Assembly (NCBI GenBank): GCA_010365215.1
Contig: JAAFGT010000007.1
Span: 1 to 64,000, forward strand
Reading direction: 5' to 3'
From: Acidipila sp.
GTDB taxonomy: Bacteria > Acidobacteriota > Terriglobia > Acidiferrales > UBA7541
DNA: 64,000 bases
Below are positions 19,726 through 35,969 of the stretch, in pieces. A program made the translations under genes and the position numbers. The notes beneath the pieces are model-generated. The model saw only the letters and a list, made by a program, of their open reading frames with translations, ran no database searches and was not told the origin of the DNA. The stretch's first letter is position 1; each line of letters begins with the position of its first letter.

Positions 19726-19963
19726 GAATGCGAGCCGGGGAAAGGTTGAAACGACCTGCCGCTGCTATCCCGACAAAAATCGATCTACCAAACCCGCCTG
19801 AACCGCTGCCAGGCGATTTAAGCGAAGTATCCGCGATCCATTTTTGAGGTTGTGAACCTTGCACAACCGCGTGGACCGGAAAGAAACTGCCGCGGCCATT
19901 GACCCCCAAGTGTCCCACCTATATCATCCACAACTTCAAACCCATTTCTTCCGGAGGTTCACC

Positions 19964-22900
19964 GTGTCTAAGCGGATAAGTTTCATCCTGTTGATCGGAG
20001 CGGCGGGGCTGTTCGTCACTCCTTGTTTGCTCCATGCTCAACAGCCGCAAATTGCTCCCGATGTCTACGAGCAGCTTAAGTACCGCTACATCGGGCCGGA
20101 AGGCAATCGCGCTACCTCTGTCGCGGGCGTGCCGGGAAACCCTCTGGTGTATTACGTGGGCGCGGCGTCCGGCGGTATTTTCAAGTCCACCGACGGCGGT
20201 GTGCGCTGGGCCCCGATCTTTGACAACGAACCTGTGGCCTCCATCGGCTCGCTGGCGGTCGCGGCGTCCGTATCGTCTGGGCGGGAACAGGTGAATCGTT
20301 CATCCGCAGTCATATTTCCGTGGGCAGCGGAATCTATAAATCGCTGGACGCGGGTAAGAACTGGACCTCGATGGGACTCGAGAAGGTCGGCCGCATCGGC
20401 CGCGTCGAGATCGACCCACGGAATCCCGACAACGTTTTGGCCTGCGCCATGGGCCACGCCTATGGTCCCCAGCCCGAACGCGGCGTTTTTCGCACGACCG
20501 ACGGCGGAAAAACCTGGGTGAAGACGCTATTCGTAGACGAAAACACCGGCTGCTCCGATCTGGGTATGGACCCTAACAACTCGCGCATCCTCTTTGCCGG
20601 CATGTGGCAGATCGAAATTCATACCTGGGGACGCACCAGCGGCGGGCCGGGCAGCGGCCTATTCAAGTCCACCGATGGAGGGGCGACCTGGAAACGCCTG
20701 GAGGGTCATGGCCTTCCTCATCCGCCCGTTGGCAGAATCGCTGTGCGCGTTGCCGCGCGCGATTCGAACCGCGTCTACGCGGAGATCGAAACTGGCGACG
20801 GCGTCCCCCTGGGCAATAGTCCCGGCCAGATCGGCCAACTCTGGCGTTCCGACGACGGCGGCGACAATTGGCAGATGGTCAACTCCGACCGCCAACTGCG
20901 CGGCCGCACGCACTACTACACTCGCGAGGAAATCGCTCCGGACAATGAGAACGAAGTGTTTTTCTTCTCCGCATCGTTTTCCAGAACCCTCGACGGCGGT
21001 CACACGCTCACCAAAATGCCCGCAGACCCCGGCGGCGACAATCACGAGATGTGGATCGATCCGACCAACGGCGACCGCATGGCCGTGGTCAACGATGGAG
21101 GAGTGAATCTCTCCGTCAATCGCGGCCGCTCCTGGAGCCACGTGCAGCTTCCCATTGCGCAGATCTATCACGTCACCGTGGACGACCAGATTCCGTATTT
21201 CGTGTATGGCAACCGGCAGGATGGCCCGTCCTGGCGTGGCCCCAGCAACAGCCTGCAATTCGGCGGCTTCCTCGGCAACAACATTCCCCGCGGCGCGTGG
21301 CATCCCGTGGCCGGCGGCGAGAGTGGTTTTGCCGTGCCCGATCCCGTGGACAACAACATCATCTGGTCCACCGGCACCGGTACCGGCAGCGTTGGAGGCA
21401 CGGTGACCCGCTTCGATGAGCGCACCCACCAGAATCGAGAAGTCGAGGTCTGGCCGGACTACGTAGCCGGCGCTCCCGCCGCCGAGGTGAAGTACCGCTT
21501 CAATTGGGAATTCCCCATCGCCATCTCGCCCCACGACCACAATAAAATCTACGTCGGCAGCCAGTTTGTCCACGTCACCACCGATGGCGGAAACAGTTGG
21601 CAGATCATCAGCCCCGACCTGACCCGCAACGACAAAAGCCGCCAGCAAATTTCCGGTGGCCTCACTCCTGATAACATCGGCGTGGAATATGCCGGAGTGA
21701 TTTTTGCGCTCACGGAATCGGCGAAAGAGCCGGGCCTGATCTGGGCAGGCACAAACGACGGCCTCGTTCAGGTCACGCGCGACGGCGGAAAGAACTGGAC
21801 CAACGTGTCCAAGAATCTTCCCAACCTGCCCGAATGGGGCACCGTCGACAACATAGAAGCCTCGCGCTACGACGCCGGCACGGCTTACCTCACCGTGGAT
21901 TTTCATCAGGTGAATAATCGCGACCCGTTTGTCTATAAGACCACCGATTACGGGAAAACCTGGACGGCCATCACCGCGGGAATCCCGCACTCCATGCTCA
22001 GCTATGCGCACTGCGTCCGCGAAGATCCCGTACGCAAGGGACTTCTGTATCTGGGCACCGAAGGTGGACTGTATGTCTCCTTCGACGACGGGAAAAATTG
22101 GCAGCCGCTCCAGGCCGGCCTGCCGCACGCGCCGGTTTACTGGCTCACCATTCAAGAACGCTTCCACGATCTTGCCGTCGCCACTTACGGCCGTGGTTTC
22201 TGGATCCTGGACGACATCACGCCGTTGCAACAGATGACCACCCAGATGCTGGCTTCCAAAGCGAATCTTTTTGCGCCGCGCGACGCCTATCGATTTCAGG
22301 CTGTCGCGCAACCCGCCGCCGTGGAATACGACCCCACCAGCGGAAAAAATCCGCCCTATGGCGCGCCGATCAATTTCTATCTCAAATCCAATCTCGGGGA
22401 GAACGAAAAGGCCCGCCTCACCATCGCTGATGCCGATGGAAAAACCGTGCGGGAAATCGAGTGCCGCGCGTCAAGATCTGACGCCGCCGCAAAACCGCCC
22501 GCCGCGGACGAGGACGAGCCCGACGCCGACCCTCCGCCCTGCGAAGTCAAAGCGGGCATCAACCGCGTATGGTGGGATCTGCGCTCCGAGCGCAGCACGC
22601 AGATCCGCCTGCGAACTACTCCGCTCTACGCGCCCGATGTCCCCTTCGGGCCGGAAGGCTGGCGCAAACCTCCGGCCTTCGGTCGCCTCTCCACTTTGGT
22701 TCCGCCGGGGACTTATACGGTGTCGCTAGCGGTCGGCGATGAAAAGTTTACGCAGAAACTCAACGTACTAAAGGACCAGCATTCCACCGGCACCGAGGGC
22801 GACATCCAAGCTCAGACCCGGCTGCAGGCCGCGCTGCGCGACGAAACGAACTCCCTCTCTGGCGCGGTGAACCAGATTGAATCGCTTCGCGTCCAGATTG

Positions 22901-23268
22901 GCGCATTCCAAAAAGAGCTCGGAATCGATGACGCTTCGAAGTCTATTAACAAAGCTGCCGGCGACCTGGCGGAGAAACTTGTCGGCGTCGAAGGAAACCT
23001 GCTGCAGCTAAAGCTCACCGGCCGCGGACAGGATGACTGCCGGTGGTCCCCCATGCTCTTGCACAAGATCGCCTATCTCTCCAATCAACTCGACAGTACT
23101 GCGGATTTTCCGCCAACCACGCAGCAGGTGGCGGTGCAGGAAATGTTAAAGCAGCAGGGGGACAAAGCCCTTCAGGAATTTCAGCAAGTCTTGGCGAAGG
23201 ATGTAGCCGCTTTCAATGCCATGCTTCGAGAGCGAAATATTCCCAACCTATTTGTCAGAACGCCCTGA
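19964..23268 (+). pseudogene. VPS10/sortilin-type BNR-repeat secreted protein, frameshifted
   Basis: A large exported beta-propeller protein of the VPS10/sortilin-like BNR family common in Acidobacteriota. The start is GTG at 19964 with GGAGG 6 nt upstream, giving a signal peptide ending HAQQPQ. Repeated Asp-box motifs (STDGGVRW, TTDGGKTW, STDGGATW, TRDGGKNW) mark the propeller blades. The first ~100 residues are in one frame up to about 20269; the continuation (VWAGTGESF onward) is in another from about 20275. The 5 nt between (20270-20274) are too few: the family usually has a short Asp-Pro-containing link here, so 4 or 7 bases seem lost. The remaining ~980 codons are intact, so recent decay or a base-call error are both possible. 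Confidence 0.8.
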
Positions 23269-23304: not shown

Positions 23305-24696
23305 TCAAGTTTTTACCACCGGGAATGCTTGCTGATTCCAGGCAGTCATGCCGCCCAAAACATTTACAATCTTTCCGAAGCCCGCCTTAGCCAGAATGCT
23401 GGAGGCCATGCTGGAGCGGTATCCGCTTCCGCAAATCACATAAATCTCTGTGCCCCGCGGAAGTTCGTTCAGCTGTTTAGGCAAATTCCCAGCCATGATG
23501 TGCGTCGCTCCGCCAACATGGCCGGATTTCCACTCGCCGTCACTGGTCACGTCCAACACGAAAGCTTGGTTCGCATGAGCATGTAATTCTTCCACGGATA
23601 CTTGCGGGATATGCGCCTGTTCCAGGCCCCCTTCGATCCATGCGGCCATGCCCCCCTGGAGATATCCCTGCACGTCGTCCAGGCCCACTCGCACAAGCGA
23701 GCGGGTGGCCTGCTCATAATTCGTTGCGTCGTCGCCAATCAGGTAGATGGGGCGGTCGTAAGGCAGCACCCAAGCGGCCCAAGTGGAAAGATTCCGGCCC
23801 GCCCCGATACTGTACGCGCCGGGAATATGTGCTCCACCGAAGGCTTCCGGGCGCCGAAGATCCAGCATTACCGATTCAGCTTGCCCCACGTAATCTTGGA
23901 ACTGCTTCAGGCCGATTGCAGTTTTGCCTGGAATACAGCCCAGCAGCCTGGGCCCTTCCGCGTTTAAGCGCTTCATCCGTTTGTAATAATCGGGAAAGGG
24001 CGGCACGGAACCGAGAATCTTCTGCACGAATTTTGCTTCATCCGCTTCTGCAAAATAGGGATTGCACGCTCTTTCATATCCGAGCGTCGACTCCTGCCGT
24101 TCGGACATCCCCGACCCGCACAGCGAACCGGCGCCGTGGGCTGGATGAATCTCCACGCCGTCCGGCAGTTCGCGCAGTCTGCCGCGAAGACTGTGGAAGA
24201 GCTCACTCGCCAGCCGCTGTTTCGCGGCTTCCCCAAGAAGGTCGGGCCGTCCCAGCGATCCGACGAACACGAAATCGCCGGAAAGAAGCAAGGCGGGCAC
24301 GCTCCCGGAGCGCCGGTCGTCGTAAACCACAAACGACAAGTGCTCCGGCGTGTGCCCTGGCGTGTGCAGGGCCACGATTCGGACCGTGCCAACTTTAAGT
24401 TCCTGCCCGTCACGAAATTCCCGGTGCTTAAATTTATACGCGTATTCTTCACCGTCATCGTGCCCGCTCAGCCACAACTCCGCTCCGCTGACGTGCGCCA
24501 GCTCCAGCGCCCCCGAGGCGTAGTCCGCGTGAATGTGCGTCTCCAGAATATGAGAGATCGTAAGATGGTGAGCGGAAACGTACTGGAGATAGCTGTCTAT
24601 GTCGCGCTGGGGATCGATGACCACGGCCTTTCCGTCGGAGCTGAGAATGTAGGAATAGTGCGCCAGTCCCGCAACCTCGAACTTCTGCAACAGCAT
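23305..24696 (-). CDS. MBL-fold hydrolase fused to two rhodanese domains (persulfide dioxygenase-like)
   Basis: A 463-residue protein. The N-terminal metallo-beta-lactamase domain (1-235) carries THIHADY (His54, His56, Asp58), HTPGHTPEH and SGDFVFVG, as in ETHE1-type persulfide dioxygenases, which oxidise glutathione persulfide to sulfite. Two rhodanese domains follow: the first (about 260-350) lacks a Cys in its active loop (YLIGDDATN), while the second (about 370-460) has VICGSGYRSS with a candidate sulfur-carrying Cys. This order matches CstB/PDO-rhodanese fusions. The start lies 4 bp after the ArsR stop, with GAGGAGGTG inside the 3' end of arsR, so the two are co-transcribed. A role in sulfide/persulfide detoxification is likely. 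Confidence 0.9.
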   Translation of the reverse strand: MLLQKFEVAGLAHYSYILSSDGKAVVIDPQRDIDSYLQYVSAHHLTISHILETHIHADYASGALELAHVSGAELWLSGHDDGEEYAYKFKHREFRDGQELKVGTVRIVALHTPGHTPEHLSFVVYDDRRSGSVPALLLSGDFVFVGSLGRPDLLGEAAKQRLASELFHSLRGRLRELPDGVEIHPAHGAGSLCGSGMSERQESTLGYERACNPYFAEADEAKFVQKILGSVPPFPDYYKRMKRLNAEGPRLLGCIPGKTAIGLKQFQDYVGQAESVMLDLRRPEAFGGAHIPGAYSIGAGRNLSTWAAWVLPYDRPIYLIGDDATNYEQATRSLVRVGLDDVQGYLQGGMAAWIEGGLEQAHIPQVSVEELHAHANQAFVLDVTSDGEWKSGHVGGATHIMAGNLPKQLNELPRGTEIYVICGSGYRSSMASSILAKAGFGKIVNVLGGMTAWNQQAFPVVKT

Positions 24697-24700
24697 GCCT

Positions 24701-25054
24701 TCACCTCCTCTTTCTTGCGCGGCCGATCAACTCGGAATAATTCGTCCGCACGCTTTTAGTGGCGCTGTGGCAGACCAGGTCGCACAGCTCGAAGATGGTG
24801 GTATCGGCAATGGAATAAAAAATGCTGTTTCCATCGCGGCGCCGCGACAGTAAGCCGGCGTCATAAAGTGCCTGCAGATGTTTTGAGATATTGGGCTGAT
24901 TTCCCGAAAGGCGCAGAGTTATTTCGCCCACGCTTTGTTCGCCGGGCTCCAGGCATTGCAGGATCCGCAGCCGGGTGGCATCGCCCAGCAGGCGGAAGCG
25001 GCGCGCTACCAGGTCCAACATCTTGTCGCCTAATTCCAGCTTGACCGTAGCCAC
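24701..25054 (-). CDS. ArsR-family repressor (possible persulfide-sensing BigR/SqrR type)
   Basis: A 117-residue winged-helix repressor with a GTG start at 25054 and GGGAG upstream. The core FRLLGDATRLRILQCLEPGE and QPNISKHLQALYDAGLLSRRRDG is typical of ArsR proteins. It lacks the metal motif ELCVCD; instead it has Cys34 in the early helix and Cys91/Cys95 near the C-terminus, a layout like BigR/SqrR, where two Cys form a di- or tetrasulfide on persulfide exposure (inference). Co-transcription with a persulfide-dioxygenase-like enzyme supports that reading. Its probable operator lies inside its own promoter (25083-25094). Confidence 0.92.
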   Translation of the reverse strand: MATVKLELGDKMLDLVARRFRLLGDATRLRILQCLEPGEQSVGEITLRLSGNQPNISKHLQALYDAGLLSRRRDGNSIFYSIADTTIFELCDLVCHSATKSVRTNYSELIGRARKRR

Positions 25055-25067
25055 GCTTATTTCTCCC

Positions 25068-25103
25068 TTGACGTATTACACCATATGGGAATATAGTTGT
25101 AAA
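25068..25103. promoter_or_regulatory. Overlapping divergent promoters with ArsR-type palindrome
   Basis: On the minus strand TTTACA (25103-25098), a 17-bp spacer and TGTAAT (25080-25075) point towards arsR. On the plus strand TTGACG (25068-25073), an 18-bp spacer and TATAGT (25092-25097) point towards the small membrane protein and efflux genes. The palindrome ATAT-N4-ATAT (25083-25094) lies in the minus-strand spacer and reaches the plus-strand -10. One bound repressor could shut both directions. Element positions are seen; function is inferred. Confidence 0.6.
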
Positions 25104-25158: not shown

Positions 25159-25182
25159 TGCCCGGCCGCAGGAGATCTCCAC

Positions 25183-25395
25183 ATGCCCAGTTGGCTGCCC
25201 ACGGTATTCGTTATGGTCGCTTACCTCGTGCTCATGCGCTGGATCCTCCCGCGCCTCGGCGTTCCCACATGAATGTCCGGTGCTTGCAGCGTCGGGTCTC
25301 GACGCCAAGGACGCTCGGAAAGGGGGCGTGGAAGTAAGCGAATGGATGAAACGAGGTCTGAACAAATAACCAAAGACTCCGCGATCCAAGGGTGA
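25183..25395 (+). CDS. Small membrane protein, candidate UGA-decoded selenoprotein (70 aa)
   Basis: The ATG at 25183 has GGAG 8 nt upstream. The frame encodes 29 residues with one membrane helix (about 5-22) ending ILPRLGVPT, then an in-frame TGA (25270-25272), then 40 more codons (MSGACSVGSRRQ..., a basic soluble tail) to a TGA at 25393-25395, 9 bp before tolC. If the first TGA is read as selenocysteine, Sec30 sits five residues before Cys35 in PT-U-MSGAC. A SECIS-like stem-loop follows the TGA. The alternative is a plain 29-residue peptide. Function is unknown; context (ArsR, persulfide enzyme, efflux) suggests thiol, sulfur or metal chemistry at the membrane. Confidence 0.6.
25283..25309 (+). 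promoter_or_regulatory. SECIS-like stem-loop downstream of in-frame UGA
   Basis: GCGTCG (25289-25294) and CGACGC (25300-25305) form a perfect 6-bp stem around the loop GGTCT. CTTG (25283-25286) and CAAG (25306-25309) extend it by 4 bp, with CA bulged on the 5' side. The GGT begins 23 nt after the TGA. A short stem with a GGU(CU) apical loop about 16-37 nt after UGA is the known bacterial SECIS layout, and the GGUCU loop also occurs in the E. coli fdhF element. Confidence 0.65.
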
Positions 25396-25404
25396 ATACC
25401 TCTA

Positions 25405-26847
25405 ATGAGGATTTGTACACGACAAGCCGCTGCACCAAGCCAAAGATTGTCAAAAGCGATTGGCCGGCGCCGGGAAGTTTCTCGCGCGGGCGCGTTCGCT
25501 GTACTGCTCGTGCTCCTTGCATCGCCATTCTCCGCGCAAGCGCAGCAAGCGCAACAACGTTCTCCGATTACGCTTCAGCAGGCGGTAAATATCGCCCTGG
25601 AGAAGAACCCGGAACGCAAAGCGGCGCTCGCCGACACCAAAGCCGCCTCCGCGGATGTGAAATCAGCTCGGGTTTTTCTCCTGCCGCAAGTTACTTTTAC
25701 CGAGACGGCCACACGTGGCAACGACCCGGTGTACGTATTCGGAAGCAAGTTGCGACAGCAGCGCTTTGCCACCACAGACTTCGCGCTGAACGTCTTGAAC
25801 ACTCCGGCTCCACTCGGCAACTTCGCCACACGCTTCGGTGGAACCTGGAACCTGTTTGATTCGTTCGCCAGCTGGCGTGCCGTCAATCGCGCAGAGCGCA
25901 GGAATGAAGCGGCGGCGCATCAGCTGGAACGTACCGACCAGGAGATCATCTACCGCGTTGTGAACTCCTACTACGGTGTGCTGCTGGCAAAGAAACATTT
26001 GGAGATTGCCGAGCAAAGCATGAAGACGGCGGGGTCGATCCTGGACCGCAGCAAAAATCGATTCGAGAGCGGCATCGTCGTGGAAAGCGATTTACTCACC
26101 GCTCGGGTACGGCAGGCGACGCGAAAGCAGGAACTCATTCGCGGCCAGAGTAGCCTGGCATTGGCACGGGCCCAGTTGAGCGCCTCCATGGGCGTCCCCC
26201 TGGAAAATGAATTCGAGCCCGCCGAGGCCCTGGCAGAAAGAAATCTTCCGGTAATCCCGCTTGAGGAAGCCGAGAAAAAAGCAGTCGAGACGCGTCCTGA
26301 CCTGAAACGCATCCGCTCGGAGGAGGCGGCACAGCAACAGAGCGTGGCGATCGCGAAATCATCCTTCGGCCCGCGGGTGAATGCGTTTGGAGGCTGGCAG
26401 GCTGACAATCCAACCTTCGGCGCTGCAGGTGGGAATAACTGGCTAGCGGGAATTGAGCTTCAGTTCGATCTCTTCGACGGCGGAGCCAAGCGGGCTATGC
26501 TTTCCCACGAACGAGCGTTGCAGGAGAAAGTCGCAGCCGTTAGGGAAATGGCCACGGATGCCACTCGCCTCGAAGTCCGTCGCGCCTATTATGACCTGGA
26601 TTCTTTCCGTCAACAGGTCGAAGTGGCTCGCGCAACCATCGCAGCGGCACAGGAAAGCTTGCGCATCAATCAGAACCGCTACGACTCGGGCCTCTCGACG
26701 ATCACCGATCTGCTTGGGGCGGAAGAAAGCGCACGACGCAGCCAGACCGATTATTGGGAGATTCTATATCGCTATCACACCGGATACGCCAACCTGGAGC
26801 TGGTCAGCGGGACTCTAAATCCCCAGTCTGCCGTGGTGGTGCCATGA
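25405..26847 (+). CDS. TolC-family outer-membrane efflux protein
   Basis: A 480-residue outer-membrane channel of an RND tripartite pump. It has a signal peptide (hydrophobic about 29-44, ending AQAQQ) and two OEP repeats with long amphipathic helices: the first begins ITLQQAVNIALEKNPE, the second includes VAIAKSSFGPRVNAFGGW and LRINQNRYDSGLSTITDLL. It starts 9 bp after the second stop of the candidate selenoprotein, and its stop overlaps the next start as ATGA, so the genes form one operon. An N-terminal extension of about 25 residues before the signal core is slightly long; no better start is visible. Confidence 0.92.
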   Translation: MRICTRQAAAPSQRLSKAIGRRREVSRAGAFAVLLVLLASPFSAQAQQAQQRSPITLQQAVNIALEKNPERKAALADTKAASADVKSARVFLLPQVTFTETATRGNDPVYVFGSKLRQQRFATTDFALNVLNTPAPLGNFATRFGGTWNLFDSFASWRAVNRAERRNEAAAHQLERTDQEIIYRVVNSYYGVLLAKKHLEIAEQSMKTAGSILDRSKNRFESGIVVESDLLTARVRQATRKQELIRGQSSLALARAQLSASMGVPLENEFEPAEALAERNLPVIPLEEAEKKAVETRPDLKRIRSEEAAQQQSVAIAKSSFGPRVNAFGGWQADNPTFGAAGGNNWLAGIELQFDLFDGGAKRAMLSHERALQEKVAAVREMATDATRLEVRRAYYDLDSFRQQVEVARATIAAAQESLRINQNRYDSGLSTITDLLGAEESARRSQTDYWEILYRYHTGYANLELVSGTLNPQSAVVVP

Positions 26848-27974
26848 GTCGCACCAAGCAAACAGTCGCAGGGGCTGCTCTGCTGATTGGAATTTTAAGC
26901 GCAGGCCTGTCCGGCTGTTCGAACCAACATCGTACCGAGGTCGCTGCGCCGGAAACGGAGAGCAACGTTGCGGTGATTGTCGCGCACAAGACATTCGTAC
27001 CGGACTGGCTGGAAGCCGTCGGTACAGTACGCGCCGCGCAGTCCAGTCAGATTGCCAGCCAGATGATGGCCAACATTCTCGAGATACGCGCGCGGGAAGG
27101 TGACCGCGTACAGAAGGGTCAGGTGCTCGCGGTCCTCGACGCCGCGCAACCTCGCTCCGCGGTGGACCAGACTACGGCAGCCGCGACGGCCGCGCAAAAA
27201 CAGGTCTCCGCCGCCGATGCCGACTTGGCGCTCGCGGAATCCACTTTGCAGCGATACCAGCAGCTCTACGACAAGAAATCCGTCAGTCCGCAGGAATTTG
27301 ACGAAATCAAAGCCCGCTTCCAGTCGGCCGAAGCGCGGCGCGATATGGCGAGGGCAGGACAGTTACAAACGAATGCAGCGCTCGCTCAAGCCCGAACTTC
27401 GCTTGGTTATTCGCTTATTCGCGCGCCGTTTGCCGGCGTAGTGACGGAAAAAAAGGCCGATGCCGGCGCGCTGGCCTCCCCCGGCATCCCCATCTTCACT
27501 ATCGAAGACACGCGGAGTTACCGGATTGAAGTGACGGTAGATGAGAGTGACATCCGCCTAGCCCACGTGGGGCAGACTGCCCCGGTGACCATTGATGCTC
27601 TGAACAATGCCCAGCTTTCCGGCAAGGTCGTCCAAATCGTTCCGGCTGCCGATTCGGCCAGCCGCAGCTTCCTGGTGAAAGTTGCATTGCCCGCTGATGC
27701 ACGCCTTCGGTCGGGACTTTTCGGGCGCGCGCATTTTGACCGTGGTGAGCGAAACGCGCTGTTAATACCACGCAAGTCCGTAGTGGAGCTCGGACAACTC
27801 CAGGGAGTTTACGTGGTCGACTCCACCCAGATAGCGGGGTTGCGTTACCTCACCCTCGGAGAGAGCACCGGAGAAAACGTCGAGGTCCTCTCCGGGTTAC
27901 AGGACGGAGAGAAACTCGTCGCGGCCCCCGGCGATCATGAATTGGGCGGCAAGCGAATCGAAATACGGCCATGA
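26844..27974 (+). CDS. RND efflux periplasmic adaptor (HlyD/AcrA-type) lipoprotein
   Basis: A 376-residue membrane-fusion protein. The N-terminus has a lipoprotein signal (hydrophobic stretch then LSGCSNQ), so it is probably lipid-anchored at the inner membrane. A lipoyl/barrel-sandwich domain ([22 protein letters not shown]), a helical hairpin (about 110-175) and [20 protein letters not shown] follow, then beta-barrel and membrane-proximal domains. The start overlaps the tolC stop (ATGA), and its own stop overlaps the RND pump start. It links the pump to TolC. Confidence 0.93.
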
Positions 27975-30900
27975 GCGACACACCGGCCAAACAGATCGGC
28001 CCAGTTCGCGTCCCGCGACTGGCCGGGCGCATTGCGCACATCTTCATTCAGTCCAAGCTGACGCCGCTGGTAATTGTTGGCGCGCTCCTCCTCGGAGCTT
28101 TTAGCATCCTGCAGACGCCGCGCGAGGAAGAGCCGCAGATTATCGTTCCCATGCTGGACGTCCTCGTCCAGATGCCCGGAGCGTCCGCCGAAGAAGTAAC
28201 CCAACGCGCCACTGTGCCCATGGAAAAATTGATCCGCGAAATACCGGGCGTGGAGTACATCTACTCCATTAGCCACCCCGGGCTGAGCATGCTGATCGTC
28301 CGGTTCTATGTTGGCACCAGGGAAGAGGACGCGATCGTCAAGACCTACAACAAGCTTTATTCGAACTTTGACCGGATTCCACAGGGAGTTTCACAGCCCA
28401 TCATCAAGGTGCGTTCGATTGATGATGTGCCGATTCTCGCTCTGACGCTGTGGGGAAAAAATTACAGCTCTTACCAGTTGCGCCGTATCGCCGGTGAACT
28501 GGAGCATTCTCTGAAGCAGTCGGATGACGTTTCCGAGACCACCCTCATCGGCGGACAGCCGCGTAAGTTACGCGTGGTTCTGGATACGCAGCGTCTTGCT
28601 GCTTACGCCCTCACTCCGGGCTCCGTTGTCGCGCAACTCGGGGCCGCGAATACACGCCGGCTAGCCGGTAGTTTTGCTCGCGATAACCAGGAGTTCCAGG
28701 TCGAGGCTGGCAACTTCTTCACCCGTCCGGAGGACCTCCAACACGTCGTCGTGGGGGTTCACGCAGGTCGCCCGGTCTACCTCCATGACGTGGTTGACAA
28801 GATCGAGGACGGCCCGGCGGAACCAGAGAATTACGTCATGTTCGCGAGCGCCCAGGGAACCACGGGGGGTGTGACCCATCCAGCCTATCCGGCGGTCACC
28901 ATTACCGCGGCCAAACGCAGGGGTGCCAACGCCACACTCATTGCTGAGAATGTTCTGCGCCACGTCGCCTCCCTTCGCGGCAATACGCTACCAAACGATT
29001 TGAACGTCACCGTGACGCGCAACTATGGTGAGACGGCCAAGGACAAATCCAACGAACTCCTCAAGCATCTTTTCATTGCCACGCTTTCCGTCACGTTGCT
29101 TATCGCCCTGGCGCTGGGCTGGCGTGAATCGGGAGTGGTCTTGTTGGCCATCCCGGTAACTCTCGCTCTGACTCTGGCTATTTTCTACCTCTACGGGTAC
29201 ACGCTGAACCGCGTAACGCTTTTCGCCCTGATCTTTTCCATCGGCATCCTGGTGGACGATGCCATCGTGGTGGTGGAGAACATCGTGCGCCATTTCCGGC
29301 TGCCCGAAAATCGCGGGCGGCCACTCGCCGACGTCACCGTAGAGGCCGTCGACGAAGTCGGCAACCCCACGATCCTTGCCACCTTTGCGGTGATCGCGGC
29401 GATCCTCCCCATGGCGTTTGTGCGCGGGCTGATGGGCCCTTACATGCGGCCCATCCCGGTCGGCGCTTCTTCGGCCATGATGTTTTCGCTGGTTGTGGCC
29501 TTTGTGGTTTCACCCTGGGCGGCGTTGCGGTTGCTGCGTCATTACGCCGATCGCCCCGACTCCGGGCACGAGGCGGAAAGCTGGACCACGCGGCTATACC
29601 GCCGGCTGATGAACCCGCTGATTCAGAATGCATCGTGGCGGTGGTCCTTCCTGGGCGGTGTAGTGGTGCTGCTGCTGGCAGCGGTGGCCTTTGTCCCGCT
29701 CAAATGGGTGCAGGTCAAGATGCTCCCCTTCGACAACAAAAGCGAGTTCCAGGTAATCGTCGACATGCCCGACGGAACTCCGCTGGAGCAGACCACTCGC
29801 GTGGCCCAGGCTTTGGGTAATTACCTCGGCCAGCAACCCGAGGTGATCAATTACCAAATCTACTCCGGTACCTCGGGTCCCTATAACTTCAACGGGCTGG
29901 TGCGGCATTACTTTCTGCGCAGCCAACCCAACCAGGCCGACATCCAGGTAAATCTTCTCTCGCTGGACCAGCGCAACGCGCAGAGCCATGAAATCGCCCG
30001 CAGATTCCGTCCGGAGCTCGACAAGATTGCTGCTCCCTTCGGCGCCCGAATAAAAGTGGCCGAAGTTCCGCCGGGTCCCCCAGTGCTGGAAACTCTTGTA
30101 GCCGAAGTCTACGGGCCGGACTACAAAGGCCAGACTGAACTCGCGGCGAAAATAAAAAAAGTTTTCCAGGAGACTCCCGGAGTGGTGGACGTCGACTGGT
30201 ACGTCGAAGATCCGCAGATCAAGTACGAAATGAAAGTGGACCTCGACAAGGCTGCGCTGCAAGGAGTATCAGCGGCGGAAGTCACCCGCACGGTCGAGAT
30301 AGGTTTGCGCGGGGCCACGGCGGGACTCTTGCACGACCCCGCATCTCGGGAAGATGTTCCCATCGAGGTTCGCCTCTCTCGCTCGGCCCGCTCAGGCATC
30401 GACGACCTCGGAAACCTGAAGCTGCCTGCAGCTTCCGGCGGCCAAGTCTCACTGCGTGAGATTACCAACGTCCGCAAGACCATCATCGATACCAGCATCT
30501 ACCGCAAAAACTTGCGGCCCGTGGTCTATGTTACCGGGGACGTCGCCGGCGAGATAGAAAGCCCGGTGTACGCCATTCTCAAGATGAGCGATGCGATTGA
30601 CAAAATCCCATTGCCCCAAGGCTATCGCCTGCAGCAATATTCCGGCACGGCGCTACCCGACCGCACCGACCGCCTCTCCATGAAGTGGGACGGCGAATGG
30701 CACATCACCGTCGAGGTCTTTCGCGACTTGGGCTTGGCCTTCGCTGCGGTGTTGGTGCTGATCTACGTGCTGGTGGTGGGATGGTTTGGATCATTTAAGA
30801 CGCCGCTGGTGATCATGGCTCCGATTCCGCTGACGCTTGTGGGCATTTTGCCGGCGCACGCGCTGATGGGAGCGTTTTTTACCGCGACCTCGATGATCGG

Positions 30901-31243
30901 CTTCATCGCCGGTGCGGGCATCATTGTCCGGAATTCGATTATCCTCGTGGACTTTATCGAGTTACGCCGCTCGCACGGAATGTCCCTGCAAGAAGCCGTG
31001 GTCGATGCCGGAGCCGTGCGCTTCCGTCCCATGTTGCTGACCGCAGCGGCTGTCGTCGTGGGTGCCAGCGTGATTTTGTTCGATCCTATTTTCCAAGGGC
31101 TGGCTATTTCGCTGATGGCAGGAGAGGTTGCTTCCACCGTGCTTTCTCGCATGACCGTTCCGGTTCTTTATTACCTGAGTGAACGCGGCGGTGAAAGCGC
31201 GCTCCCGGCCATGGACCCAAATTTCGTGCCCGGGGCGCATTAA
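27971..31243 (+). CDS. RND-family inner-membrane efflux pump
   Basis: A 1090-residue AcrB/MdtB-type transporter, slightly longer than the usual ~1040. It has 12 predicted helices with two large periplasmic loops. The proton-relay Asp pair is in [19 protein letters not shown] (TM4). The first loop begins [21 protein letters not shown], the second [21 protein letters not shown]. Substrate cannot be told; the lack of CusA-type Met triplets argues against copper/silver. Control by an ArsR protein beside a persulfide enzyme suggests a thiol- or sulfur-related or metalloid toxicant (inference). Confidence 0.93.
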
Positions 31244-31577: not shown

Positions 31578-32486
31578 TCAAATTGCGTCGCCCCGCCTGT
31601 ACGAGGGCGCCGCCAGTGGCGCAAAGAGCCCGGACTTCAGCATCAGCATCATCACCGTAAAGTCCCCAGTGAGCTCGCACCCTGCGATCAGCACCACTAA
31701 AACGGGGGAATGCACATTGGCGTGCAAGATCGAAAGGAGTAACGTGGCCGCCAGCCCCACCAGCAGCACGAGTCCGAAGAAAGCCCGCGCGTAAGTTCCA
31801 CGGAGCCATTCCCGCAGAGTTTCCCGGGCGGCCGGAAGTGACCGGCTCATCCGGTAAAAATAAATTGCTAAAAGGAAAAGATTGGCTACGAGCAAGCCAT
31901 GCTCCAGCGCTTCGAGACCCGCGGGAGGAATTTCACCGCGCAGATCGCGAATGGTCAGTGACAGCGTGATGCCTCCGAGCGAGGCGTACATGAACAACAA
32001 GAGCGGCAGCAGGAGTGTTCGCCAGAAGGCTAGGCCCGCGGAAGATCTCATGACAAAACCGTCGTAACCCGCGATGAACACTGCGCAAGCCGCAGCCACC
32101 CCAAAATTTATATTGGCGGCTGACTTCGAAAGATGGATCCACGGTGCGTGCGCTTGCAGCAGGATGCTGATAAATCCAGTGGCCATAAAAACGCCCATGG
32201 CCCATATTCCGCGGGCAATCCACGAGCGGTCCGGCCGTCGGGCGGCCGCCAGAAAGCGCTCCGGCCGGCCGAGAAAAAGCATATGCGCGCTGTTCTTGCC
32301 CACGACCACGATCAGAAAACCCGCAATCATTCCCGCCACGTGGCCAGTGAGCAGCGACACCAGGAATAATCCTCCGCCGAGGCCGCCCAGGAAAAAAGCG
32401 GTTCCGATGAGCCAGTTCCAGTACCTCTGGCGGTGATATCCAACTGCGAATCGGTGTGGTGCAATCAACAACTCTCGTGTGGCCAT
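31578..32486 (-). CDS. NrfD/PsrC-type membrane subunit of a molybdoenzyme
   Basis: A 302-residue integral membrane protein with eight hydrophobic segments. NrfD/PsrC family traits are YWNWLIGTAFFLGGLGGGLFL, LGRPERFLAA and an early Gly-rich helix. Such subunits anchor an iron-sulfur/molybdopterin pair and exchange electrons with quinone. It is the last gene of the operon, 36 bp after the FeS subunit. It lacks haem-b His pairs of the FdnI type, supporting NrfD. Confidence 0.9.
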   Translation of the reverse strand: MATRELLIAPHRFAVGYHRQRYWNWLIGTAFFLGGLGGGLFLVSLLTGHVAGMIAGFLIVVVGKNSAHMLFLGRPERFLAAARRPDRSWIARGIWAMGVFMATGFISILLQAHAPWIHLSKSAANINFGVAAACAVFIAGYDGFVMRSSAGLAFWRTLLLPLLLFMYASLGGITLSLTIRDLRGEIPPAGLEALEHGLLVANLFLLAIYFYRMSRSLPAARETLREWLRGTYARAFFGLVLLVGLAATLLLSILHANVHSPVLVVLIAGCELTGDFTVMMLMLKSGLFAPLAAPSYRRGDAI

Positions 32487-32522
32487 ACTTTTTCTCCGTT
32501 CGATTACCGGAAGATTCGCGGG

Positions 32523-33137
32523 CTACGCGTCAAGATAGTAGACGTTCGGTTTCGTCTCGTACTCCGGCAGCAACGTCCAGCCCTTCCTTTCCTTCACCAG
32601 ACGCTGCAATTTGCCGTCTTCCTCCTCCCAATCGCCAAAAATGCGCGCATCGGTGGGGCAGGTCACCACGCAAGCCGGCTCCAAACCCTGATCCACACGG
32701 TGCGCGCAGAGCGTGCACTTGATGTTGGTTCCTTCGTCGAAGTCGGCGAACTTAATGGCTTCCATCGGACTGATTCCCTCACTGTTATATCCGTGCTCCA
32801 GCAGGCCGTGCTCGATGTAGTGGCGGTTCATGTAAGGGCAGGCCAGGTTGCAGGCGCGGCACCCGATGCACATATTGTGGTCCACCATCACAATGCCGTC
32901 GGGACGGATGTAGGTCGCTCCTGTGGGGCAGACCGCGGCGCACGGCGCATCCGAGCAATGATTGCACAGGGTGGGGAGGAAGGTGCGCGTGCTGTTGGGA
33001 TAGGTTCCCACCTCCTCAGTAATGACGCGCGAGAAGCTGATGCCTTCGGGTGTGCCGTTTTCTTGCTTGCAGGCCAGCGTGCACGCATTGCAGCCGATGC
33101 AGCGTTTGAGATCAATTACCATCCCCAGTCGGGCCAT
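32523..33137 (-). CDS. 4Fe-4S dicluster electron-transfer subunit (PsrB/NrfC/DmsB type)
   Basis: A 204-residue ferredoxin-like protein with four Cys clusters: CIGCNACTLAC near the N-terminus, CNHCSDAPCAAVCPTGA, CIGCRACNLACPY and a C-terminal group CTLC...CVVTCPTDA. This is the standard four [4Fe-4S] wire between a molybdopterin catalytic subunit and a membrane anchor. It carries no signal peptide, as expected for a partner subunit. It sits between the MoaD-like gene and the NrfD gene. Confidence 0.95.
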   Translation of the reverse strand: MARLGMVIDLKRCIGCNACTLACKQENGTPEGISFSRVITEEVGTYPNSTRTFLPTLCNHCSDAPCAAVCPTGATYIRPDGIVMVDHNMCIGCRACNLACPYMNRHYIEHGLLEHGYNSEGISPMEAIKFADFDEGTNIKCTLCAHRVDQGLEPACVVTCPTDARIFGDWEEEDGKLQRLVKERKGWTLLPEYETKPNVYYLDA

Positions 33138-33163
33138 CCACGCACCTCACAAAGTGACCTCGG

Positions 33164-33451
33164 CTAACCGCCGGCCAGGTGACGAATAATCGCCATGGTG
33201 ACGACTTGTTCGTCTCCGTGCAGCTGCCTGTCCAATTGATCTGCTTTCAAGCTCAATCCATCCACTACGATTGCAAAGTCCGACCGCAATTTGCCGTTGC
33301 ACACCAGGCGTTCGTAGAGGCAGCTGCCGTCTAGTGTAGGCAACTGGCGCAGCAGGTCGGCCACCGTGCCGCCTTCAAATTTCACCGTGCTGCGGCTGAA
33401 CCCCAGCATCTTGCGGGTGGCTCCCAGGGCAGCGACATTGGCTATTGGCAT
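33164..33451 (-). CDS. MoaD/ThiS-family sulfur carrier protein
   Basis: A 95-residue ubiquitin-like protein ending in the diagnostic di-glycine (RHLAGG), which is adenylated and thiocarboxylated to deliver sulfur. FEGGTVADLLRQLP and HGDEQVVTM agree with the MoaD/ThiS beta-grasp fold. Its position, 4 bp after the molybdopterin catalytic gene and before the FeS subunit, suggests a MoaD-like protein dedicated to the cofactor of this enzyme. No MoaE or ThiF-like partner is in the window, so it must borrow one. A different sulfur-transfer role is possible. Confidence 0.85.
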   Translation of the reverse strand: MPIANVAALGATRKMLGFSRSTVKFEGGTVADLLRQLPTLDGSCLYERLVCNGKLRSDFAIVVDGLSLKADQLDRQLHGDEQVVTMAIIRHLAGG

Positions 33452-33455
33452 GGCG

Positions 33456-35969
33456 TTACCTTTTCACGCGCTCGACGCGCACACGCGCCGTGGACTCCAG
33501 TCCGCCGGTCGCGCTGTCGGTATATTTCATAGACCCGGTCAGCAGCCGGTTGAAATGTGTTCCCCGCAGCTTCACTTGTTTGTTGGTTACGACGTCCCGG
33601 GTGATGGCATTGCTCACGCCGAACACCTGGGGATGGATACCCTCGACCACCTGCACCGGCCCTTCGATGCTTCCGCCCGGTGAAGTCAGGCGAATGGGGT
33701 CACCCGTCTTGAATCCCAATTTCCCCGCGGTGACGGAATTGATCAGGATCCCTCCGTGAATGGGATCCTTCTCGCTGACCTCCGTAAGCCACGGCATGAC
33801 CATGGTGTCGGCAAACGTGTGCAGGCTTTCTTTGAAGGTGATGGCGTAAAATTCGTACCCCGCCTTGCCGTCTTCTATGACCTGCGAGTTCTTCCAGAAG
33901 GGAAGCGGCTTGTAGTTATCGAGCGGCCAGTCCTGGAGTCCCACCTCGGCAAACTTTTGCCGCATCTCGTCGCCAGTACGCTTGATGAACTCGAAATAGA
34001 AGGGGATGCGCAAGCTGCCGTAAGCCAAGTAGGTTTCTTCCGGGGTGCGATAGCGCACCGCGTGCCCGTGCTCCTTGAACCACTCCAGTCCCTTTTCTTC
34101 CCCGTAGATGCTGCGGGCGTAGCGGTCCCAAAATTCGTCGACGCTGTGACGCTTTTCCGGCTCGAGCAGATACTGGGGCTTGGCCGTAAATCCGCAGACC
34201 ACATTTAAAAGATCATTCCAGTCATCACGAAAACCCAGCCGCTCGGATAATTCGGTGAGGATGTCGTAGGGGTCGCGGGTGTCGCCGAGAGGTTTGACCA
34301 CCGGTTGGCGCAAAGAGTGGCCGGTTACGGCGGGCGGCTCCAGGCAGTTGAGCAGCGTGGATTCGAGGAAGGTCTGGTCCGGCAGGAACACATCGGCCCA
34401 CTGCGTAGATTCGGTCTCCTGAATCTCAATAGCCACCACGAACTTCATTTGCTGGAAGATTTCCTCGATCTTGTCGGTCTCCGGCATGTTCCACCAGGGG
34501 TTGGAGTGGTAGATCAGCATGGCCTCCGGACGGTAATCCAGGCCGAAGCGCTCCGGGTTCAGCAGCGTTTCCGCATTCAGGTGGCCGGCGTCGAACCCGA
34601 TGGGGAACCACTCCATTAAATGGCTGGAATCCGGCGGGTACTTGAACGGCGGCGCGGGATGGAGTTGATGCGGTTCGGGCTTCAGCATGCCGTCTTCGCC
34701 TGGGCTGACGAAGAAACCGCGGTGATCGAGGGGCACGCCGAGATGGCCGCCGGGAACGTCGATGTTCCCCACCAGCATGTTGAAAAGCTTGAAGGTCATG
34801 TTGTCAAACAGGCCGTTGCCGTGCGATTGCGAGCCGCGGTAGTAATTGAGCGCGGCGGGACGATAAGGATAGGTCTTGCCCTCGATCTCCATCGTCGCGC
34901 CAATCTGCGCGGCGTCCACAAACTCCTTCGCAATTTTCCGGATGGTGGAGGCTGGTACAGTAGTGACTTCGGCCATCTTCTCGGGTGTGTTTTCCAGCAG
35001 GATGTCTTTCCACACCTGGAAGCCAGTGCGGAGTTTTATCCCCTGGTGGGAAAATGTTCCTTCGAGCGCCATGGATCCAGAGGGAGCCTCATCCCAGGCA
35101 TGCGGGGCATTTGCCTTCAAGTCCCAAACCTGGACTTTGCCGCTGGCATCCCGCACGTAATCGCCATCCTCCTTCACCAGATACGGCGCGTTGGTGTGGT
35201 CGCGGAGAAAGTCGCGGTCGTAGCGGCCCAGTTCGTGGATGAGCACATGCGCCATACCGAGGACGAAGGCGCGATCCGTGCCGGGAATAATCGGGATCCA
35301 CTCATCCGCTTTTGCCGAGGCCACGGAGCAGCGCGGGTCCAGCGACACCACTTTCATGCCGCGCATGCGCGCGTCGGCCATGCGCTTGGCGCTACCGGAA
35401 AGGTGCAGGTGGGAGGAGAATCCGTCGCCGGAGCCGATTTGAATCCAGTAGTTGCAATATTCGTAGTCGTTGATGGCGGCGAAGGACCCGTCCACGCACC
35501 CGTTTACTGGATGATAGGAACCGCCGCAGTAATTTCCCAGCGAAGTAAAAAAATTCGGTGAGCCGAAAACAGCGGGCCAGCCCCAGAAGAGAATTCGCTG
35601 GAAATCGCCGAGAGCACAGAGCAGCTTGCGGGGATCGTCCCGGCGCACTTTACCCAACTCCCGCGCAACAATCTCGTACGCTTCGTCCCAGCTGATCCGC
35701 ACCCATCGCGGATCCTCATGGAGACCTTTCTTGGGGTTGGTGCGCTTCATGGGGTGGAGCACGCGAGTGGAATCGTAAAGGCGGGCCAGGCCGGCGTTGC
35801 CTTTCGGGCAGAGCTTGCCGAGGTTGTCGGGGTTGGTGGGGTCGCCTTCGATTTTCAGCGCCACACCGTTTTCGACATACACTTTAATCCCGCAGCCGTG
35901 CAGGCACATGCCGCAGGTGCTCGGTATCCAACGACCTTGGCTCCGAGTCGCGGTCCTGGTGGTCGCCAT
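33456..35969 (-). CDS. Molybdopterin oxidoreductase catalytic subunit (DMSO-reductase family)
   Basis: An 837-residue Mo/W-bisMGD enzyme. The N-terminal Fe4S4 site is CGMCLHGC...LCPKG (Cys19, Cys22, Cys26, Cys54). Molybdopterin-binding blocks include YRGSQSHGNG, FNMLVGNIDVPGG and, near the C-terminus, GVSNAITRDVVTNKQVKL. A Cys in LGNYCGGSYH (Cys148) is the candidate metal ligand. No twin-arginine signal is present (MATTRTATRSQGRW), unlike PsrA/PhsA, so the subunit probably faces the cytoplasm. It starts 11 bp after the Rrf2 stop with GGAGAG upstream and heads a catalytic-MoaD-FeS-NrfD operon. Substrate is not certain; sulfur-compound, arsenic or organic-substrate oxidoreductases share this layout. 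Confidence 0.93.
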   Translation of the reverse strand: MATTRTATRSQGRWIPSTCGMCLHGCGIKVYVENGVALKIEGDPTNPDNLGKLCPKGNAGLARLYDSTRVLHPMKRTNPKKGLHEDPRWVRISWDEAYEIVARELGKVRRDDPRKLLCALGDFQRILFWGWPAVFGSPNFFTSLGNYCGGSYHPVNGCVDGSFAAINDYEYCNYWIQIGSGDGFSSHLHLSGSAKRMADARMRGMKVVSLDPRCSVASAKADEWIPIIPGTDRAFVLGMAHVLIHELGRYDRDFLRDHTNAPYLVKEDGDYVRDASGKVQVWDLKANAPHAWDEAPSGSMALEGTFSHQGIKLRTGFQVWKDILLENTPEKMAEVTTVPASTIRKIAKEFVDAAQIGATMEIEGKTYPYRPAALNYYRGSQSHGNGLFDNMTFKLFNMLVGNIDVPGGHLGVPLDHRGFFVSPGEDGMLKPEPHQLHPAPPFKYPPDSSHLMEWFPIGFDAGHLNAETLLNPERFGLDYRPEAMLIYHSNPWWNMPETDKIEEIFQQMKFVVAIEIQETESTQWADVFLPDQTFLESTLLNCLEPPAVTGHSLRQPVVKPLGDTRDPYDILTELSERLGFRDDWNDLLNVVCGFTAKPQYLLEPEKRHSVDEFWDRYARSIYGEEKGLEWFKEHGHAVRYRTPEETYLAYGSLRIPFYFEFIKRTGDEMRQKFAEVGLQDWPLDNYKPLPFWKNSQVIEDGKAGYEFYAITFKESLHTFADTMVMPWLTEVSEKDPIHGGILINSVTAGKLGFKTGDPIRLTSPGGSIEGPVQVVEGIHPQVFGVSNAITRDVVTNKQVKLRGTHFNRLLTGSMKYTDSATGGLESTARVRVERVKR

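Follow-up and report, generated by a model that had tools for sequence, protein, structure and literature searches.

The first gene of an efflux-type run in Acidipila sp. raises a question of decoding: is the TGA in frame at codon 30 a true stop closing a peptide of 29 residues, or is it read as selenocysteine (Sec) within a protein of 70 residues? In the window, i.e., the whole stretch of 64,000 nucleotides that was analysed, translation would start at 25183, SelB with the Sec-tRNA would decode the UGA at 25270-25272 as selenocysteine, directed by the hairpin at 25289-25305, and translation would end at 25395 to yield a single-pass membrane selenoprotein. Comparison with homologous loci strongly supports both the recoding and the existence of a family, and the gene product is very probably a membrane selenoprotein with Sec at the UGA.

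Gene, Reading Frame and Genomic Setting

The features of the region are the following.

23305..24696, minus strand: metallo-beta-lactamase/rhodanese fusion (persulfide-dioxygenase-like)
24701..25054, minus strand: ArsR-family regulator, divergent
25068..25097, plus strand: promoter-like TTGACG-18-TATAGT, putatively serving the selenoprotein-tolC-hlyD-RND run
25170..25174, plus strand: AGGAG ribosome-binding site, 8 nt upstream of the ATG; a G-rich stretch also precedes many homologue starts
25183..25395, plus strand: candidate selenoprotein gene, 70 residues, MPSWLPTVFVMVAYLVLMRWILPRLGVPT-U-MSGACSVGSRRQGRSERGRGSKRMDETRSEQITKDSAIQG; frame read, with 172 further distinct homologous loci
25195..25254, plus strand: membrane-helix codons (residues 5-24), from AlphaFold2 and hydropathy
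25270..25272, plus strand: putative UGA-Sec codon 30; aligned codon in 173 distinct loci
25285..25287, plus strand: Cys35, i.e., U+5, the position of the first Cys after U in 67 of 99 members
25289..25305, plus strand: SECIS-like hairpin GCGTCG-GGTCT-CGACGC, from the fold of the window and covariation in homologues
25405..26847, plus strand: TolC-type outer-membrane efflux protein
26754..27974, plus strand: HlyD-type membrane fusion protein, as a mechanically delimited ORF whose true start is probably further in
27971..31243, plus strand: RND efflux pump (ACR_tran)

The frame opens with an ATG, runs over 29 codons to the TGA at 25270-25272, stays open for 40 codons more and stops at 25393-25395, 9 bp before the ATG of tolC at 25405; all of this, together with the ribosome-binding site, reads as an earlier note made from the sequence alone had claimed. 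The single membrane helix proposed there agrees with the AlphaFold2 model of the window protein, where the helix spans residues 5-24 and residues 1-20 have a mean pLDDT of about 91. In the same protein, hydropathy over 19 residues peaks at 1.84 in the segment starting at residue 4, and the C-terminal tail is predicted to be disordered.

Respective to its surroundings, the gene is the first of the TolC/HlyD/RND run and divergent from the genes for the ArsR regulator and the metallo-beta-lactamase/rhodanese fusion. At two homologous loci (L083 and L094), a TTGAC...TATA pair is placed alike, with an ATAACTA...TAGTTAT-like dyad in the same interval, as would be expected for control by ArsR. Directly past the RND pump, an NrfD-type membrane subunit and a molybdopterin oxidoreductase form a polysulfide-reductase-like pair (31578-35969, minus strand), possibly a second sulfur link beside the selenoprotein. 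On the other side lies a large protein with Sortilin-Vps10/BNR repeats (20320-23268, plus strand), whose first part, overlapped by the ORF 19859-20521, may be divided between two frames around 20320-20521.

Family Extent and Shared Features

Searching 60 relatives yielded homologues whose TGA stands at the position found in the window, as well as one that has Cys there. With a profile built from these first homologues, members were found in 93 of 396 sampled Acidobacteriota genomes, and one short pattern gave 80 loci from 84,980 named species genomes, 79 with TGA and one with TGT. The record titles of these 80 loci name Acidobacteria, Deltaproteobacteria, Desulfuromonadales, Myxococcota, Rokubacteria and Planctomycetota and, for the rest, Spirochaetes, Calditrichaceae, Verrucomicrobia, KSB1, Bacteroidetes and Elusimicrobia. 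On these sequences, the putative selenoprotein family is spread over about ten bacterial phyla, bearing in mind that titles of MAG records may trail current taxonomy and that counts outside Acidobacteriota are lower bounds. No relatives were found in viral contigs or, by tblastn, on plasmids.

Beyond the window, 98 of the other loci were read. The family consensus is a helix followed by LxxW[VI]LP[RK][LFM]G[VI]xT-U, often then xxxxC, with a start-to-U distance of 28-31 residues in most members and Thr directly before U in 98 of 99. Conservation in the family alignment is best before the UGA and low past about residue 45. As for the Sec30/Cys35 pair put forward in the earlier note, which may serve in redox or metal binding, Cys35 is present in the window; among homologues a Cys at U+5 is common (67/99) and not universal, a third lacking it. 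Members carry a mean net charge of -0.7 on the N-terminal flank and +1.4 on the C-terminal flank, which suggests a topology with the N-terminus outside and the basic C-terminus inside, so that the conserved LPxxGxxT-Sec motif and the Sec itself would lie at the cytoplasmic face of the membrane.

Two variations were observed within the family. In a subgroup (L113, L150, L161, L163 and others), there is no Cys at +5 but T-U-AVP/GVP/AAP followed by Pro/Arg-rich sequence, and the hairpin comes 16-19 nt past the UGA; the subgroup is perhaps a functional subfamily. One genome (G087) has two copies of the gene (L159 and L171), the second being quite diverged (VLPRLGIDT-U-LSRSVC).

The Codon at the Sec Position

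At the 173 distinct loci, the aligned codon is TGA in 171 and TGT (Cys) in two, and never TAA or TAG, forms that would have shown since the genome search reads through every stop. By comparison, the final stops of the same genes are mixed, with TGA in 83, TAA in 49 and TAG in 39. The homologues do not, therefore, end at codon 29, the outcome that the earlier note had named as adverse: wherever TGA stands, the frame reads on. In 33 non-overlapping close pairs, 215 of 514 substitutions after the UGA fall at third codon positions, against 224 of 382 before it, a preference for the third position that is weaker past the UGA but persists. Both Cys forms (G046/L176 and L199) have TGT with the frame continuing, and neither genome has SelB over the cut-off; for G046, 99% complete, there is no SelB match at 1e-40. 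In these two cases only, Cys appears to take the place of Sec where Sec is not used.

The SECIS-Like Hairpin

The window hairpin has a stem of 6 bp, a GGTCT loop and a folding energy of -14.5 to -21 kcal/mol, with 22 nt between the UGA and the first G of the loop. As regards the stem-loop previously described, the 6-bp stem, the loop and the spacing stand; the 4-bp lower stem is the weakest part of the hairpin, and its partners change in longer folds. By itself, the hairpin is unexceptional, with folding z-scores from -1.7 to -0.1 and an equally good hairpin score at 2.8% of the 1632 TGAs of the window, so that single-sequence evidence could not have decided the question of recoding.

It is the homologues that raise the window hairpin above chance, by their own hairpins and by covariation. 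A bSECIS-type hairpin score of at least 12 is reached by 92% of members; among dinucleotide shuffles the share is 28%, and among the TGAs of the window it is 21%. In the unselected test of covariation, with columns fixed from the UGA, six pairs near +24 give 411 paired cells versus 306 +/- 10.6 in shuffled sequences. In a set of 41 distinct sequences with common spacing, preselected for at least four of seven pairs there, 94.4% of cells are paired and the stem shows 61 double-sided changes where 13.6 are expected, pairing falling below 43% when the partner is slid by one to three columns. The Cys form of G046, the one examined for a hairpin, lacks a bSECIS-type hairpin. No T-run was found after the stem of the window hairpin, and a search of Rfam returned nothing above chance.

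Sec Machinery and Association with SelB

The earlier note had asked for a look for selA, selB, selC and selD and had named the lack of selB/selC/selD as refuting, and the host genome (4.1 Mb, 98% complete) proves to hold SelA (545 bits), SelB (366.5 bits, over the cut-off), SelD (365.6 bits, its frame containing a single TGA) and a tRNA-Sec with anticodon tca. Of note, the host SelD (L018, G000:C88:24480-25442, minus strand) has its TGA at the active site, in AAKAAG-U-AAKLSP, with the hairpin-capable sequence GAGTCCCGGGACTC downstream, its pairing judged by eye; the host genome thus has at least one other Sec gene of the same layout.

In the phylum sample, 87 of 92 genomes with the Sec form have a SelB that passes the cut-off, versus 167 of 304 others, with p about 3e-14, a value that overstates independence because the sampled genomes are mutually related. 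The five Sec-form genomes without SelB over the cut-off (G113, G176, G185, G299 and G429) are fragmented or incomplete assemblies. Seen from the other side, 87 of the 254 SelB-positive genomes sampled in the phylum, about a third, carry the gene.

Alternative Readings of the UGA

Two other readings have to be weighed against recoding. Small membrane peptides are common, and the gene could encode one of 29 residues with a true stop at the UGA, the conserved hairpin behind it then being regulatory, as attenuator, terminator or mRNA stabiliser; the best conserved segment does precede the UGA, and the hairpin does begin shortly after it. Such a reading would nonetheless have to accommodate 171 TGA codons with not a single TAA or TAG in genes whose final stops are mixed, a codon-position bias that continues past the UGA, a stem with no T-run behind it, strong co-occurrence with SelB and, in two genomes that lack SelB, Cys at the exact codon with an open frame. 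The reading as a stop plus regulatory hairpin is contradicted by these Cys forms and was rejected; we consider it very improbable. Alternatively, an open frame after a stop and a hairpin might have come together by chance, since 2.8% of window TGAs match the score of the window hairpin, but the whole of the homologue evidence stands against it; refuted by conservation, this reading was likewise rejected, and its probability is negligible. Decoding of the UGA as Sec is the reading retained below.

Relation to Known Selenoproteins

No family of Pfam or NCBIfam matches the window protein, and for 36 members the same libraries gave no more than scattered weak hits, none of them related to selenoproteins. 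A profile search of the PDB found no solved structure at E below 0.2. Among the 119 prokaryotic selenoprotein families of the 2026 catalogue (PMC13188914), no entry has the LPxxGxxT-U motif. The uncharacterised bacterial selenoproteins Tso, Sao, KCU-star, OS_HP, DG, DW and DF described there resemble the family in that several are small or have short motifs, but their listed motifs are unlike LPxxGxxT-U, the Tso families (Haft and Tolstoy, 2025) having been compared via NCBIfam and the 2026 review (PMC13188914) only. On the open-access literature and profile libraries compared, this is a new selenoprotein family within a known kind.

That kind is the bacterial selenoprotein with a bSECIS element, e.g., FdhF of E. 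coli, with which the family shares the in-frame UGA, the presence of SelA, SelB, SelD and tRNA-Sec in the genome, and a hairpin 16-37 nt downstream with a G opening a small loop; the GGUCU loop of the window hairpin is the same as in fdhF. The family differs from the FdhF type in being a 70-residue membrane protein with a single helix, not one of the enzyme subunits whose fold is known, and in having almost no Cys counterparts. In eukaryotes, the small selenoproteins SELENOK and SELENOS likewise span the membrane with one helix and bear their Sec in a flexible tail. Compared by description, this likeness is one of architecture alone: the family, which does not belong with them, has a bacterial SECIS in the coding region, and its Sec immediately follows the helix instead of lying close to the C-terminus.

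With regard to the scarcity of Cys forms, glycine reductase selenoprotein A is the sole such protein named as being without Cys homologues (PMC12013277). It is also prokaryotic and known chiefly in the Sec form but, unlike the family, has a CxxU motif and a known enzyme complex, with no role as a membrane anchor. Methods for the discovery of selenoproteins depend on finding homologues with Cys or conserved domains of some length (PMC12013277, PMC13188914), and the near absence of Cys forms together with a first part of 29 codons may explain why the family was overlooked by standard discovery.

Possible Function

Most likely, the protein would provide a membrane-anchored Sec redox site directed against damage by reactive sulfur, peroxide or electrophiles; where a Cys is present five residues on, it could form a selenenylsulfide with the Sec. 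This reading, with reactive sulfur or thiol/peroxide stress as the probable target, is suggested by the neighbours in Acidobacteriota (DUF302, rhodanese, ArsR, OsmC, thioredoxin and RND efflux). At 38 of 173 loci (e.g., L088, L105, L128 and L130) a DUF302 gene lies within 1.5 kb, with hardly any farther out, and DUF302 may share a pathway with the selenoprotein. Within the same distance, thioredoxin occurs at 16, rhodanese at 14 and ArsR at 14 of the 173 loci, and the Pfam tallies of adjacent genes also include TauE, OsmC and class-V aminotransferases. No recurrent sulfur gene was found among neighbours outside Acidobacteriota, which weakens this functional reading; the role in reactive sulfur is rated as somewhat unlikely.

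In the host, the selenoprotein would be made together with the RND efflux system under the control of the divergent ArsR regulator, an arrangement that bears on two further proposals. The protein could chiefly be an AcrZ-like accessory component of membrane complexes, RND pumps for instance, its Sec sensing redox state and not serving catalysis. The window gene heads an efflux run, and 37 of 173 loci have RND genes near it, as a rule upstream and in constant order, yet most loci have none nearby and many members stand alone or next to other redox genes; we hold the proposal to be unlikely. Binding of a metal or metalloid by the Sec and Cys residues at the membrane, with delivery to efflux, would be in keeping with the RND operons, the ArsR-type regulators within 1.5 kb at 14 loci and the Sec...Cys spacing that two thirds of members share. 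Against it, a third of members lack the Cys at +5 and the top neighbour tallies contain no P-type ATPase, MerA or other metal-specific gene; we hold this proposal to be quite improbable.

Significance

Coming back to the redox-site reading, a broader view is possible, if tentative: the family would be an uncatalogued and widespread class of single-pass proteins in which Sec is nearly irreplaceable, with Cys only where the Sec machinery has been lost, i.e., a counterpart of SELENOK/SELENOS performing selenol chemistry at the membrane surface (reduction of persulfides, peroxides or electrophiles) coupled to efflux. No profile library used names the gene, despite its presence in about a third of the SelB-positive Acidobacteriota sampled. 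With it, a small membrane protein devoid of known domains would join a catalogue whose characterised members mostly have a thioredoxin-like fold. The family would offer a natural test of why Sec persists where Cys hardly ever occurs, and it suggests that more short selenoproteins are hidden behind "stop" codons.
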